Assembly: GCA_947444925.1 (NCBI GenBank)
Contig: CANFBW010000031.1
Location: 1 to 37,800 of the forward strand
Length of the DNA: 37,800 nucleotides
Source: Flavobacteriales bacterium
Lineage (GTDB): Bacteria; Bacteroidota; Bacteroidia; Flavobacteriales_C; GCA-002722245
Reading direction: 5' to 3'
Position 1 is the first letter of the stretch. Every line of letters begins with the position of its first letter. The notes below the pieces were generated by a model. That model did no database searches. It was not told where the DNA came from and saw nothing but the letters and a program-made list of their open reading frames with translations. Positions 32,136 to 37,800 of this stretch are shown here, piece after piece. The translations under genes were made by a program, and so were the position numbers.

Positions 32136-32149
32136 GAAATAGGAAAATA

Positions 32150-32210
32150 GGGGACAGACGTATATTATTTTTCAATATGTCAATGAACTAATTAATATAC
32201 GTCTGTCCCC
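32150..32210. repeat. REPIN-like palindromic element, copy 1
   Basis: Left arm GGGGACAGACGTATATTA (32150-32167) and right arm TAATATACGTCTGTCCCC (32193-32210) are perfectly complementary over 18 bases around a 25-base centre. The 61 bases are identical, in the same orientation, to 35942-36002. The left flank reads GGAAAATA here and GGAAATA at copy 2, and both continue into CTGTTT on the right, so the element may be slightly longer than the stem. Confidence 0.9.
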
Positions 32211-32285
32211 TGTTTTTAACAATAAAAAAGTCCTCACTTCTAAAGACTTTTAAACTATTTAATTAGATTTTCGTATATTAGCTAT

Positions 32286-32513
32286 ATGGATTTACAAGCA
32301 AGAAAAATACAGCTTATTCAGTTCCTAGCCCTTACCTCAAGTGAATCTTTGGTAGAGAAAATGGAAAAACTAATTCAGAAAGATACAACTGATTTTTGGG
32401 ATGAACTTTCACCTGAATTACAATCAGCTATTGAAAAAAGTATCGCTCAAGCCAATAGCGGACAGCTAACTTCACATGATGAGGTAATGAAGAAGTACAG
32501 CCAATGGGTGTAA
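32286..32513 (+). CDS. Type II antitoxin, addiction-module (RelB/ParD-like) protein
   Basis: The 75-residue protein has DLQARKIQLIQFLALTSSES at the N-terminus, as in addiction-module antitoxins of the TIGR02574 type, and a C-terminal SAIEKSIAQANSGQLTSHDE then VMKKYSQWV. The latter is the toxin-binding end typical of this group. It would neutralise the following toxin and repress its own promoter. It overlaps the toxin gene by 10 bases, the usual arrangement. No RBS and no clear operator was found upstream. It is 75 bases downstream of the palindrome. Confidence in the pair is higher than in the subfamily. Confidence 0.82.
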   Translation: MDLQARKIQLIQFLALTSSESLVEKMEKLIQKDTTDFWDELSPELQSAIEKSIAQANSGQLTSHDEVMKKYSQWV

Positions 32514-32803
32514 AGAAAGTGTTTTGGACACCCGATGCCGAACGTACCTTTAGCAACGTCATTGATTTTATTCTTGTAAAATGGACTGGCAAAGAAGTTA
32601 AAAAGTTTACTTCCGCAACTCAAAAAACCGTTATCCAAATCGCTAAAACTCCTGAAATGTTTGTTAGTTCCCAGCACAAACATATTAGAAAAGCGGTTAT
32701 CACCAAACACAATTCCCTTTACTACCAAGTAAAAAAAGATTCTATTCATCTGCTTATCTTTTGGGATAACAGAAAGAATCCTGAGTATAATATTTACAAG
32801 TAG
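32504..32803 (+). CDS. Type II toxin, RelE/ParE family
   Basis: The 99-residue basic protein starts with KKVFWTPDAERTFSNVIDFI, close to the opening of ParE/RelE-type toxins. The middle KEVKKFTSATQKTVIQIAKT and the final KHNSLYYQVKKDSIHLLIFW with DNRKNPEY follow the family's C-terminal strands. RelE members cleave mRNA at the ribosome and ParE members poison gyrase; the sequence does not settle which. It overlaps the antitoxin gene by 10 bases. Its presence inside the island could hinder loss of the island. Confidence 0.85.
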   Translation: MGVKKVFWTPDAERTFSNVIDFILVKWTGKEVKKFTSATQKTVIQIAKTPEMFVSSQHKHIRKAVITKHNSLYYQVKKDSIHLLIFWDNRKNPEYNIYK

Positions 32804-32842
32804 TTTCATCATTTTTTTTAAATGAAATATGGTGCGAAATAT

Positions 32843-33710
32843 GGTGACAGCGACCATATTATTTTGCTTTTATTTTTTCATTTTTTGGTCTCCCTGCTTT
32901 TTTTAACGCAAAACTTCTTCCACTCAATTTTTCTATTTTCGTTGTGAATTTCTCATTCCCTAAAGGACGACCTGTCCTTGTTTTACTTCTTATTTCAGAT
33001 ATAATATCATCGTTTAACTTCTCTTTTAAATACTCCTGCCAATCATCAATTTCTAAATAATTATTTATTGAATCGAGCGGAATTTTTCCTTTTCCTGTAA
33101 TTCTCATCTTGGCACTCGTCCAATTATAACTCTCAATTTTTTTTATCATTCTTGCTCGTATAGGATTGAGCTCAACGTATCTCAAAGCTTCATATAAATG
33201 GTCATTATCCAATGCACATGAATAAAATCTTCCTTGCCACAAGTGACCGAAAACACCGCGCTTCTTATTAAAATATTTACTATAGGCAACATGAGTTGCA
33301 TTAAATACTTGAGCCAATGTTTTTTCCGTACTCGGCTCTACTATAAAATGAACATGATTACTCATTAAACACCATGCGTATAATTTCAAATCAAAACTCT
33401 CTTTGTATATCATAAAAAAAACCAAATATTTCTCCCTGTCAAAATCGTCTTCAAATATTTCCTGACGATAATTTCCACGCTGAGTTATATGATATGGAAC
33501 GGACGGGACTACTACTCTTGCTATTCTTGGCATATCTTTTTGTAGCTAAAATTACATCGAAAAACGCATCACAACCCCCTGAATGCTTCATAAATATTTA
33601 ACATATAGTAAACAATCTCAAAAAGTAATTCTGATTTTGTCTACATCGCGTCAACATTTCAATGAACTTTTTATGCTACTCTTTTAGCTTTAAATTGGGT
33701 CGCTGTCACC
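32843..33710 (-). mobile_element. RAYT unit with 13-bp perfect terminal inverted repeats
   Basis: GGTGACAGCGACC at 32843-32855 and its exact complement GGTCGCTGTCACC at 33698-33710 bound an 868-bp unit that holds one transposase gene. Outward flanks also agree (AAATAT and AAATAG). From its left end the unit reads GGTGACAGCGACCATATTAT, close to the palindrome arm GGGGACAGACGTATATTAT. Right after the right end, TCACCCTATTTA occurs twice (33706-33717 and 33719-33730). Confidence 0.75.
32859..33533 (-). CDS. REP-associated tyrosine transposase (RAYT, Y1/HUH)
   Basis: The 224-residue protein begins PRIARVVVPSVPYHITQRGN, the classical RAYT opening. The HUH metal motif is in MSNHVHFIVEP (His60, His62), and the probable catalytic tyrosine is Tyr119 in ALRYVELNPIRARMI, with GVFGHLWQGRFYS between them. 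The C-terminal part (GRPLGNEKF and a basic tail AGRPKNEKIKAK) is typical of this group. RAYTs are single-strand endonucleases that act on REP/REPIN hairpins. The gene has its own bordering inverted repeats, and related palindromes lie close by. Confidence 0.9.
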   Translation of the reverse strand: MPRIARVVVPSVPYHITQRGNYRQEIFEDDFDREKYLVFFMIYKESFDLKLYAWCLMSNHVHFIVEPSTEKTLAQVFNATHVAYSKYFNKKRGVFGHLWQGRFYSCALDNDHLYEALRYVELNPIRARMIKKIESYNWTSAKMRITGKGKIPLDSINNYLEIDDWQEYLKEKLNDDIISEIRSKTRTGRPLGNEKFTTKIEKLSGRSFALKKAGRPKNEKIKAK

Positions 33711-34208
33711 CTATTTAGTCACCCTATTTATTATTTCCTCTTGCGTACTATTTTGATAAGTTTGAAGTAAATCAATAGCTATTTCAGAGGACGATGCCAA
33801 GTGTTCATTTATGGCAGGAAACAAATGTTTGCCCCCCGTATGCCCTTGAATAACCTTTCTACGTAAGGTAAAGTCATTGTTGTGGATAGAGTTGTTAGAG
33901 TAATTTGAAAACCATTCATTTGCAGAAATTCCGTTGTTATCGGGAGATGGGTTTTTATGTAAATATTCTTCAAAATAATGTTTTATTTTTTGATCTAGTA
34001 AGGCATTAGAGGAGGGATTTGATTTAAAAACGATAGATACATTCTCTCCTCGAATAGAGTTTTTAAAAAACATGAAATTTTCAAACAATTTATCGTGTTC
34101 AATGCTTTTTAAAAATGGTGCAACAGCGTTGAAAATTAATTGATTCCAAGAATACTTATTAAAGTAGATGCTATAAGAAATATACTCTAAGTTGTTTAAC
34201 ATCTTCAT
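33711..34208 (-). CDS. Unknown protein, possible lantibiotic-dehydratase C-terminal (SpaB_C-like) domain
   Basis: The 165-residue protein has NNLEYISYSIYFNKYSWNQL, then VAPFLKSIEHDKLFENFMFF and GENVSIVFKS. This order (a strand-helix start, 'V.PFL', then 'FF..S......V.I.FK') resembles the C-terminal elimination domain of lantibiotic dehydratases, found as a separate small protein in thiopeptide-type bacteriocin clusters. The resemblance is weak and judged by eye. The end NRVTK and the stop lie in the direct repeat at the border of the RAYT unit, so the natural C-terminus may be lost. It overlaps the S41 peptidase by 4 bases (ATGA), a translationally coupled pair. Confidence 0.4.
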   Translation of the reverse strand: MKMLNNLEYISYSIYFNKYSWNQLIFNAVAPFLKSIEHDKLFENFMFFKNSIRGENVSIVFKSNPSSNALLDQKIKHYFEEYLHKNPSPDNNGISANEWFSNYSNNSIHNNDFTLRRKVIQGHTGGKHLFPAINEHLASSSEIAIDLLQTYQNSTQEEIINRVTK

Positions 34209-35866
34209 TTAGTAGTTCTAATTACTTCAATTGCTTTCTCTAATAATTCATCTCTTTTCTGACGAATTCCCTCAATGGTTTGCATTACTTCAATGTCAGG
34301 GACAATTCCAATTCTTTGGGTTTCCCGCCCATCTGGATAATAAATTCCTACGCCAGAAAAACATGTTTTAAAATCTCCCGGCAAACAGATGCATGATACA
34401 TTACCATCTGCTCCGGCAGTTTGACTTCCAATACTTATAACGTTGGGAGCGGTTTCTAATGCCATTAATGTGAATTCCGCATGACTTTGCGTTGAATCAT
34501 TAAATAGCAAAATAACTTTTCCTTTATATGCATTTTTATTTTTCAGGCCACAATAATATGTGTTAGTGTAGATAAACCGTCCGGGATAAGAAATATCTGG
34601 AATAGCTGGTTTTGCAAATGGTTGAGGATCGGTGTTTAGAAATTCCGCAATTTTAAACATTGTACCGTTGGCTCCGTTTCGCAAATCGAAGATTATACCA
34701 GATGTGTTTTGAATTTCACGTAATATTGAATCGACATTTGCCAATGATAGGTGTCCCACGTTCACATATGCTATGTTGCCATCTATAATTTTACAAAGTG
34801 CTCTTTGGTTGTAGTACTTCAACCAATCGAAATTTAGTTCTGAATAGTAATATCTGGTAATAATCTTGCTTGAAATTATTCCATTTCTTTCAAAGGTAAC
34901 TTCAACAGAATCAGTATTTCCGTTAAAAATGGCGTAATAGAAATCCCTTAGTTTTGATGGATTATTTGAAGCTTCAATATATTCATATTTTTCTTTTATT
35001 ATTTGTTCAATGCTTTTAGAGTTTACACTTAAAAATACATCTCCGTATTGAATGTCATTAACCTTACATAGGGAATCGTTATAGAAACTGGTTACGACGG
35101 CTTTATTATTTATTAATTTGAAACGGAATGGAGCCCATTTGAACCCAAAATATTTGTTAGTGTAGGGAGTTTCGAATTTGGCATGCGTATCATTTAATTT
35201 TGCTACTAATTTCAGTATTGACAGATGGTAAGAAGGTTTATCTTTAGAATCTCTGAATTCCGGGATCATTTCGCTAAGTACTACATCCCAATTTTGCCCA
35301 ATTAAATATTTATATGGAAAAAAATAATTTACCACATTCCAATATCTTGCAAGGGTTAATAACCTAAGTTGTGGCGAAGGGAAAACAGAATCGGGGTAAC
35401 AATTTTCTGTTTCAAAGCTACTATAGTGTCCAATGGAAAGATCAGATTTTACGTGATAATTTTCTTTACGACTTCTATTGCGTTTAATGTGCTGAAATTT
35501 GGTGACTAATTGACGGGAAAATTTGCTCGTATCATTTAACCATTCTAGATCAGGGGTTAATTTTATTGGCTTCCGATTTCCCTTGTCAACCCCCCAACAT
35601 TTATTGACTTTTCCTAATCCTTGTATCCATTGCAGATAAAATGTATTTATATCTTGTTTTGAATGCAGTGAATCCAGTTTTTTTATTTTAATAATAAATT
35701 CTTTGTCCCAATCAATAGCACCAGTTGCCACATTAGGATGGTAATACTTTAAGAATCCCCAAACTTTACAAAATGTTGCTATTTTATCAGACTCAGTAGT
35801 ACTCTGAGCACTAATTTCACTCATTAAAAGCAAAGATGTTATCCAGAGTAATAGTAGTTTTTTCAT
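34205..35866 (-). CDS. Secreted S41-family (C-terminal processing-like) peptidase
   Basis: The 553-residue protein has a signal peptide (LLLLWITSLLLMSEISAQ). An N-terminal helical region (FCKVWGFLKYYHPNVATGAI, TLARYWNVVNYFFPYKYLIG) is common in Bacteroidota S41 peptidases. A PDZ-like segment follows (FGFKWAPFRFKLINNKAVVT to VNDIQYGDVFLSVNSKS), then the S41 core: SGIIFDLRNGANGT, VILLFNDSTQSHAEFTLMAL with Ser461 as likely nucleophile, and GSQTAGADGN. A C-terminal GIYYPDGRETQRIGIVPDIE closes the fold. It acts in the periplasm or outside. The substrate is unknown; the neighbour of possible bacteriocin type makes leader or peptide processing a guess only. The DNA is AT-rich. Confidence 0.85.
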   Translation of the reverse strand: MKKLLLLWITSLLLMSEISAQSTTESDKIATFCKVWGFLKYYHPNVATGAIDWDKEFIIKIKKLDSLHSKQDINTFYLQWIQGLGKVNKCWGVDKGNRKPIKLTPDLEWLNDTSKFSRQLVTKFQHIKRNRSRKENYHVKSDLSIGHYSSFETENCYPDSVFPSPQLRLLTLARYWNVVNYFFPYKYLIGQNWDVVLSEMIPEFRDSKDKPSYHLSILKLVAKLNDTHAKFETPYTNKYFGFKWAPFRFKLINNKAVVTSFYNDSLCKVNDIQYGDVFLSVNSKSIEQIIKEKYEYIEASNNPSKLRDFYYAIFNGNTDSVEVTFERNGIISSKIITRYYYSELNFDWLKYYNQRALCKIIDGNIAYVNVGHLSLANVDSILREIQNTSGIIFDLRNGANGTMFKIAEFLNTDPQPFAKPAIPDISYPGRFIYTNTYYCGLKNKNAYKGKVILLFNDSTQSHAEFTLMALETAPNVISIGSQTAGADGNVSCICLPGDFKTCFSGVGIYYPDGRETQRIGIVPDIEVMQTIEGIRQKRDELLEKAIEVIRTTK

Positions 35867-35941
35867 AATCTATGCGTTCAATAATTTACTCTTTAAACTT
35901 TCCTTCATTGCAAAAATGAAATTTAATTCAACAAGGAAATA

Positions 35942-36002
35942 GGGGACAGACGTATATTATTTTTCAATATGTCAATGAACTAATTAATATACGTCTGTCC
36001 CC
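35942..36002. repeat. REPIN-like palindromic element, copy 2
   Basis: Identical over all 61 bases, and in the same orientation, to 32150-32210: arms GGGGACAGACGTATATTA (35942-35959) and TAATATACGTCTGTCCCC (35985-36002). To its right, 36003-36036 holds short tandem copies of (T)CCCTGTTTGGCAG-like DNA. It abuts the truncated hsdR-like fragment. Confidence 0.9.
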
Positions 36003-36036
36003 TGTTTGTCCCTGTTTGGCAGTCCCCTGTTTGGCA

Positions 36037-36192
36037 GGGATTTAAACGCTTGATGCTGCTGTTAAAAATATCGGTGAAAATATTGGTGCTTTCATCCCAG
36101 AGCTGCCCTTTCAACGAAAGGTACTCGTACCCTAATCGCACAAGGTGCAAAATAGTTGGTATTTTTACTCGAGAGTCTTCGTTAAATTTCAC
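36037..36192 (-). pseudogene. hsdR: Truncated type I restriction endonuclease subunit R (hsdR), N-terminal fragment
   Basis: The first ~52 codons, from the ATG at 36192, read KFNEDSRVKIPTILHLVRLG followed by YEYLSL and WDESTNIFTDIFNSSIKRLN. This is the recognisable opening of HsdR proteins of the EcoR124-like type, which are about 1000 residues long. After Asn-Pro (36037-36042) the frame runs into the CCCTGTTTGGCAG repeats and the palindrome and stops at 35980. The rest of hsdR, and hsdM and hsdS, are not in the window. I conclude that the gene was cut at or near the palindrome. The fragment could still be translated as a 70-residue product. Confidence 0.7.
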
Positions 36193-36429: not shown

Positions 36430-37800
36430 TTACTCCACAAAGACCTTCAGTACTTTTTCTCCTTCGCTTGAATGCACGCGCACCAGCAATAAGCCACTTA
36501 AGGTGGTGGTGAACACCGGGCTACAAAAATGCTCGCTGTGGCCCAAGGCATCGTACACATCAATGCCACTGATTGCTGCATCAAATGAAACACTAAGTTG
36601 AGCATTTGCCGCAGCCGGATTGGGAAATACACGCAAGGCCTTGCCTTCAACATTTACATTTGAAATAGAGGTAATGACTTCGTCTAAAGTGATGACCTGC
36701 GCGTGATTGTACACCGCAACAACATGGGGCGTTGTGTTGTTTGATGCGACCATATCAACCCATGATGAAAAATAGCACCACATGGCATCGTCAGCTATAC
36801 AATTGTCAATATCGGGTATGGGTCCGTTTTCCGACATGGTGACTATTTTTTGCCCTTGCACCAAGGCGAAGAGCTGATCGAAAACCGATTTTTGTGTGGT
36901 ATAGTTGTATGCTGCCGGATAGGAATCATAGCCAATGAGATCGACCTTTGCATTTCCCGGATACCAATTTGCTTCGGGTGTTGACCACACCCAAATTAAA
37001 TTGTTTAAAGCATGATAGTTTGTCAATCTATCGTAAACAATATCATACAATTGCAAACAAGCTGTTGCTCCCTTAGCTCCCCACCAAAACCAAGCTCCTC
37101 CTGCTTCATGCAGTGGGCGCCACAAAACTGGAACTCCTGCAGCTTGCAAACGTTTCAATTGCGTTGCGATAGAATCAATGTCTCGAAGAACCGCGGTGTT
37201 TTCAGCGGTATTAGACTGCACGGCTTTGCTTGCGTCAAAAGTAGTGCTGTTGCTGTAAAAGGTATTTGTGCCCACGGTTCCACCTGATGGCGAATGCCAA
37301 TGCCACTGAAAAGTAACAATTCCTTTTCCACCAGTACTGTTGTACCAATTAATTGCCGCCTGTGTAGTGCCATCGTCTTCCCAACCAAAAACTTGTCCAT
37401 TGATTTGATTGCTCCATAAATAAGGATAACCCACAGTGTAATGCTGAAATTCAAAGGCTCTTACAACTGGTGTTTTACCTACTAAGGCAATCAATTCATT
37501 CCAGTATGCAGTTTGTCCCGAAATAATATTTTTACCATAATTGGCACGCAAATAAGCGTACACCTCATTGGTTTTGGCATTCGCATTGGCATTAATCAAG
37601 GCACTTGTTGTTTGCGTGTAATCATGTGGTGCAACCGATGTGAGCGTAAACTTATCAAAATACATATAGCCCCAACTTGCAGCAATTTTAATGGTATTTA
37701 CACCTGCGTTTAATCTTAAATTGCCGGCATTGAAATCAAAAAAAGAGTTGTTACCCGGAAATGCCAAAGTAGAAAGCAGCACAGTATTGAGGTACAAATC
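36430..37800 (-). CDS. GH26-type endo-beta-mannanase with CBM-like start and T9SS type A domain, partial
   Basis: The 5' end is cut by the window; 456 codons are visible. In order: the end of a carbohydrate-binding module (NAGNLRLNAGVNTIKIAASW, CBM35/CBM6-like), then the GH26 catalytic domain beginning AYLRANYGKNIISGQTAYWN, with FQWHWHSPSGG. WRPLHEAGGAWFWWG carries the likely acid Glu (codon 37105-37107), and TMSENGPIPD the likely nucleophile Glu (codon 36829-36831). The last ~75 residues, LRVFPNPAAANAQLSVSFDA to LKVFVE, are a T9SS type A sorting domain. The enzyme would cleave beta-1,4-mannan at or outside the cell surface. No SusC/SusD pair is visible, so any utilisation locus lies beyond 37800, if present. 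Confidence 0.85.
   Translation of the reverse strand, partial: DLYLNTVLLSTLAFPGNNSFFDFNAGNLRLNAGVNTIKIAASWGYMYFDKFTLTSVAPHDYTQTTSALINANANAKTNEVYAYLRANYGKNIISGQTAYWNELIALVGKTPVVRAFEFQHYTVGYPYLWSNQINGQVFGWEDDGTTQAAINWYNSTGGKGIVTFQWHWHSPSGGTVGTNTFYSNSTTFDASKAVQSNTAENTAVLRDIDSIATQLKRLQAAGVPVLWRPLHEAGGAWFWWGAKGATACLQLYDIVYDRLTNYHALNNLIWVWSTPEANWYPGNAKVDLIGYDSYPAAYNYTTQKSVFDQLFALVQGQKIVTMSENGPIPDIDNCIADDAMWCYFSSWVDMVASNNTTPHVVAVYNHAQVITLDEVITSISNVNVEGKALRVFPNPAAANAQLSVSFDAAISGIDVYDALGHSEHFCSPVFTTTLSGLLLVRVHSSEGEKVLKVFVE

Follow-up and report, generated by a model that had tools for sequence, protein, structure and literature searches.

The S41 peptidase gene and the short SpaB_C-like gene coupled to it are best explained as a decayed remnant, in which an intact peptidase gene stands beside a gene cut by a REP-associated-type Y1 transposase (RAYT) element, on a GC-poor island bounded by REP sequences. 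We assign this reading a probability of about 0.78. The window, that is, the whole stretch of DNA that was analysed, is the entire contig C31 (37,800 bases) of the genome G000, whose assembly comprises 3.24 Mb and is 99% complete. The island spans 3.7 kb (about 32.1-36.0 kb) and holds the gene pair, the RAYT, and toxin-antitoxin genes:

32138-32215: left REP doublet palindrome, island boundary, 78 nt
32286-32513, plus strand: RelB/ParD-like antitoxin (NCBIfam NF050811, E=2.7e-4, below cut-off)
32504-32803, plus strand: ParE-like toxin (Pfam PF05016, E=3.1e-4, just below cut-off)
32825-32855, plus strand: RAYT left end, an inverted copy of the right end
32859-33533, minus strand: REP-associated-type Y1 transposase, 224 aa (Pfam Y1_Tnp PF01797, 59.7 bits; NCBIfam REP_Tyr_transpos, 67.2 bits, below the cut-off of 80)
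33698-33728, minus strand: RAYT right end, AAATAGGGTGAC-T-AAATAGGGTGACAGCGACC, holding the stop codon of the SpaB_C-like ORF
33711-34208, minus strand: SpaB_C/Lant_dehydr_C-like stand-alone protein, N-terminal half, 165 aa; homology over codons 1-160, the five codons after them and the stop being part of the RAYT element end
34205-34208, minus strand: ATGA overlap of the S41 stop and the SpaB_C-like start, 4 nt
34205-35866, minus strand: secreted S41 peptidase gene, 553 aa, with signal peptide, N-terminal helical domain (WGFLKYYHP motif), PDZ-like region and S41 catalytic domain (Ser461, His228)
35930-36007: right REP doublet palindrome, island boundary, 96% identical to the left one, 71 nt identical

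The GC content is 0.32-0.33 over 32-36 kb, as against 0.36-0.50 elsewhere. The gene block up to 31.7 kb is common to four congeners, and beyond it other genes follow in the three with longer contigs, the contig of the fourth (G009) stopping at the 31.7-kb point. The segment was likely acquired as an island, probably by horizontal transfer, and the near-identical REP doublets on both sides of it are related to repeats found near another RAYT on contig C78. That such doublets enclose a toxin-antitoxin pair together with a RAYT suggests REP-mediated capture of cargo. Across the right boundary, a 70-aa ORF (35980-36192), considered as the start of a type I restriction subunit, has no support from Pfam or NCBIfam. 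It is followed by a glycosyl hydrolase family 26 (mannanase-like) gene at 36430-37797, which shows weak matches to CBM35 and to a T9SS sorting tail and runs off the contig end.

The earlier note on this DNA had seen in the small protein a weak likeness to SpaB_C, and this likeness is real, though partial. The TIGR03891 profile, which had been proposed for a search, does not match the 165-aa protein, whereas PF14028 does so below its cut-off (E=4.3e-4, 21.0 bits against 24.4) and over profile positions 2-127 of 255 only. The NCBIfam model TbtD_PbtD_pyrid (NF045556) likewise covers the N-terminal part only (E=2.4e-5, 23.7 bits against a cut-off of 325). Full-length relatives in a congener, a tandem of 339 and 341 aa in G006 retrieved by a search of the order, exceed the Pfam cut-off of PF14028 with 47.7 and 35.9 bits, and they are only 25-28% identical to the 165-aa protein. 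A local SpaB_C HMM, built from seven stand-alone SpaB_C proteins with the 165-aa protein left out, matches it with 62.6 bits over positions 3-154 of 334. In hhalign, the comparison with SpaB_C reaches 93.4% when the 165-aa protein is used by itself and 99.9% (311 columns) when a subfamily profile that also contains it is used, and a PDB sequence search with the profile of the 165-aa protein returned nothing.

Structure prediction, also proposed in the earlier note, points in the same direction. The AlphaFold model of the 165-aa protein, made from the single sequence, has a mean pLDDT of 58, with residues 10-90 mostly at 70-83, and shows the ferredoxin-like order beta-alpha-beta-beta-alpha-beta. 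Foldseek ranks TbtD first (E=2.1e-3, probability 1.00) and lists TsrL and MadB lower. In VIA-align, TbtD, MadB, and residues 735-824 of NisB (the elimination domain) are matched with Z values of about 8, amid other ferredoxin-like folds. Because Z values of this middling size often occur with this fold, weight is placed on the agreement between methods. Homology to SpaB_C/Lant_dehydr_C over the N-terminal half, as judged from sequence comparison and the predicted fold, is secured by the full-length proteins of the congener, which exceed the Pfam cut-off, together with the profile-profile comparison and the fold search. A chance likeness, with the small ORF being an orphan of no relation to SpaB_C, a reading for which the direct PF14028 score under the gathering cut-off would speak, is extremely improbable, since the sequence, profile, and fold evidence all agree on SpaB_C.

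The earlier note also entertained a rare minimal fragment, and this reading does not hold, for the 165-aa protein corresponds to the N-terminal half of a domain of ~330 aa and ends inside the RAYT element. All eight other stand-alone SpaB_C homologues examined are 296-341 aa long, and in alignments with stand-alone homologues the homology of the 165-aa protein ends at about residue 155-160. By codon count, residues 161-165 and the stop codon (33711-33713) lie within the RAYT right end. The inverted ends of the element, AAATATGGTGACAGCGACC at 32837-32855 and AAATAGGGTGACAGCGACC on the other strand at 33698-33716, have an expected number of 0 in shuffles, and a second AAATA(T/G)GGTG copy stands outward of each of them. 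Across the genome, the 14-base core of the ends is matched perfectly at the right end, and single-mismatch copies lie at the left end and at one further site; matches with two mismatches are no commoner than those of a reversed control pattern. The C-terminal SpaB_C half was sought in six frames over 31.6-36.4 kb and was not found, and neither an intact copy nor an empty site was seen for the insertion point, the window contig ending at 37.8 kb. RAYT-type elements are not known to cause target duplications, so that no insertion footprint is expected, and none was found.

From this geometry we infer an insertion event, the simplest reading being that the distal half was lost with it. The coupled gene would once have encoded a full-length stand-alone SpaB_C-like protein (~330-340 aa) of a diverged subfamily. 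The RAYT/Y1-transposase element would have cut this gene after about 160 codons, so that the ORF now closes with five codons and a stop that belong to the end of the element. What looks like a minimal peptide-modifying pair is thus best read as a RAYT-interrupted gene on a REP-bounded low-GC island, which calls for caution in the mining of short RiPP enzymes.

Canonical SpaB_C relatives carry the motifs FFIRYxxxGPHIRLRF, ERYGG, and HMTNNRLG. When a full LanB is aligned to NisB, R784, presumably a functional residue, and R786 fall in HIRLR, and R826 falls in ERYGG (the 6m7y numbering is, by our own count, offset by +3 relative to NisB). The NisB variants R786A, R826A, and H961A keep glutamylation and lose elimination (PMC4979651). 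In the 165-aa protein, R784, R786, and R826 correspond to S58, V60, and H123, within the local motifs N56-V-S58-I-V60 and H123-T-G-G, and the region of H961 is absent. In the two G006 copies, too, the arginines are missing, and K or R replaces the histidine. On account of these replacements, the subfamily appears unlikely to eliminate glutamate even in its full-length members. With half of the domain gone and the elimination residues absent, the fragment itself is most likely non-functional. Stand-alone elimination-domain proteins are known in class I clusters, and for some of them other chemistry has been suggested (PMC7268733).

Lanthipeptide partners were sought both near the pair and in the genome. 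The absence of a precursor, LanB, cyclase, and transporter near the pair, stated in the earlier note, is confirmed for the island, which holds no precursor, LanB, LanC, or transporter; small ORFs with a GG motif and rich in Cys are also missing from 31.7-37.8 kb. LanC (PF05147) has no match in G000, with matches in the controls and in G346. LanB_N (PF04738) has no match in G000 and G006, a weaker absence, as no control genome matched either, although the model recognises the LanBs from L063 and L097. A peptide-modifying function of the pair, the main suggestion of the earlier note, is accordingly left unsupported, with a 3'-truncated copy, no elimination residues, no LanB_N or LanC found in the genome, and the pair not seen elsewhere.

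In G006, the tandem of diverged SpaB_C-like proteins without elimination residues (341 and 339 aa; L005:10137-12174, contig C5) is accompanied by a C39-ABC exporter, HlyD, NRPS adenylation and condensation-like genes, and a phosphopantetheinyl transferase. A 304-aa protein of the same locus (L005:3582-4496), considered as a third SpaB_C homologue, is unsupported by Pfam and NCBIfam. A SpaB_C-like subfamily that lacks the elimination residues and is located in a biosynthetic cluster in which no LanB or LanC is found is a lead to be followed.

As described in the earlier note, the two minus-strand genes overlap by an ATGA at 34205-34208, and the larger one encodes a secreted S41 peptidase with a signal peptide, a PDZ-like region, and Ser461. 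The Sec-type signal peptide is read from the sequence, the Pfam Peptidase_S41 domain is matched with E=2.5e-12 (PF03572, 47.1 bits against a cut-off of 24), and profile comparison delimits a PDZ-like stretch at residues ~254-301, where the DegP PDZ was also matched. In an alignment of 48 S41 relatives, Ser461 is kept in 47 and His228 in all 48, and the candidates for the third catalytic residue are Glu464 (48/48), Gln517 (48/48), and Glu515 (39/48). CtpA-type enzymes carry a lysine 25 residues downstream of the catalytic serine, which is absent here. In Foldseek, the model of the peptidase (pLDDT 91.5) matches BACUNI_00178 (4ghn) with E=6.5e-24 and CPAF with 4e-19. The missing lysine at the CtpA spacing and the place of CPAF among the best fold matches make a Ser-His type likely. 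By its sequence, the gene is intact and its product exported; by analogy to CPAF and CtpA-like enzymes, the peptidase would most likely still work in the periplasm, where, as a Ser/His type, it would act on the ends of peptides or proteins. A phage or defence role is unsupported for either protein, as neither matched PHROGs or PADLOC; a search of viral contigs with the S41 protein retrieved no relative.

This S41 family of the Bacteroidota is present in 60 of the 395 class genomes sampled. Of 95 S41 loci, no other has a stand-alone SpaB_C gene adjoining the peptidase gene, so that the survey did not show the co-occurrence of the coupled pair that the earlier note had looked for in other genomes. 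LanC/LanB genes stand beside a gene of the family in five loci, three of them (L097, L131, and L159) from 80 named-genome loci and two (L063 and L079) from class genomes, the S41 of L079 being a distant family member (E=7.5e-22). In L097, from Flavobacterium sp. HJJ, one run holds the S41 gene together with LanC, LanB_N, a GG-leader peptide, and a 304-aa stand-alone SpaB_C protein whose gene overlaps LanB_N by 8 nt. In 12 Flavobacterium loci (L113, L117, L118, L120, L123 of F. hibernum, L127, L133, L135, L139, L143, L146, and L152), the S41 gene lies directly behind a C39-peptidase ABC exporter and HlyD, with small GG-leader peptides upstream in several. The locus is orthologous in these genomes, its flanking genes are held in common, and the 12 cases are taken as roughly a single event. 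The S41s with lanthipeptide links lie scattered over the tree, and the closest relatives of the window gene (L064, L065, L084, and L085) have no lanthipeptide genes nearby.

An association of the S41 family with modified or exported peptides gains some support from other genomes. A link with peptide export is plausible at the level of the family rather than for the window gene, and enrichment next to LanB/LanC is an impression from the loci counted. In Bacteroidota, the family recurs in operons for lanthipeptides and for the export of double-glycine peptides, a placement of which no report was found in the literature searched; it suggests exported peptides as one natural substrate class and is a second lead.

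Some of these loci show further features. In L079 (L079:1105-5448, G041:C79), proteins of 222 and 296 aa with similar starts precede the S41, LanC, and LanB genes; the 296-aa protein has no Pfam match, and the two could be long-leader precursors or partners. In Flavobacterium azizsancarii (L159:8119-11656), two tandem S41 genes of the family lie directly before LanC and LanB. A 275-aa protein without a Pfam match (L064:8261-9088) adjoins the closest S41 relative of the window gene.

Several points count against a decayed remnant. The 165-aa ORF has kept an open reading frame and its coupling to the S41 gene, and the protein could still be made. In addition, neither an intact nor an empty site was seen, the full-length ancestor has no close match, the congeneric proteins being only distantly related, and the structure model has a pLDDT of only 58. 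One could therefore imagine a working short protein, whose ferredoxin-like half-domain binds a peptide, as TbtD binds a leader, and delivers it to a partner or an exporter for trimming outside by the S41 peptidase. The open frame and the ATGA coupling fit this idea, as do the predicted folding of the ferredoxin-like half with its match to TbtD, and the G006 cluster, where two diverged relatives without detected LanB or LanC indicate that the subfamily may manage without them. It is nevertheless quite improbable, as the ORF ends within a mobile-element end, the homologues seen are all about twice as long, SpaB_C proteins are cytosolic and the S41 peptidase is exported, the island has no precursor or exporter, and the coupled pair is not seen in other S41 loci. 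A bolder version, in which the LanB/LanC-independent subfamily of the G006 type binds a peptide or modifies it through a new reaction, the half-length protein of the window is a working form of it, and the coupled S41 peptidase matures the product, we regard as very improbable.

The pair could also be what is left of a class I lanthipeptide cluster that was once complete, with LanB, LanC, an exporter, and a precursor, all other genes having been lost. This is in line with the five loci in which the S41 family neighbours LanC/LanB, and with L097, where the S41 gene, a GG peptide, LanC, LanB_N, and a stand-alone SpaB_C occur together. Against it stand the missing elimination residues in the subfamily of the fragment, the retention of two subfamily proteins in G006 with no LanB_N or LanC found, and the lack of lanthipeptide genes around the closest S41 relatives, and we consider it unlikely. 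The interruption of a stand-alone SpaB_C-like gene by the RAYT element is preferred.

Compared with known systems, the RAYT resembles RAYT/REPIN elements (PMC3116915) in its Y1 transposase gene with inverted palindromic ends and REP doublets nearby. Unlike that pattern, the 78-bp doublets differ from the ends of the window RAYT and resemble the repeats near the second RAYT. The TbtD/PbtD pyridine synthases (NF045556) give the best fold match and the best NCBIfam match, over the N-terminal part, but the 165-aa protein is half as long and has no thiopeptide genes around it. With the stand-alone SpaB_C proteins of Bacteroidota class I lanthipeptide clusters (PF14028, TIGR03891; PMC7268733) it shares homology over the N-terminal ~155 residues and the stand-alone gene; it differs from them in the lost C-terminal half, the absent equivalents of R784, R786, R826, and H961, and the lack of a detected LanB_N or LanC partner. 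An S41 peptidase is also conserved in a kind of peptide natural-product cluster in fungi, the dikaritin RiPP clusters, whose pathway is unrelated (PMC6514808). The window peptidase itself has the PDZ and S41 fold of BACUNI_00178 (4ghn), CPAF, and CtpA/CtpB, with Ser461 and His228, and, unlike them, carries an additional N-terminal helical domain with the WGFLKYYHP motif.
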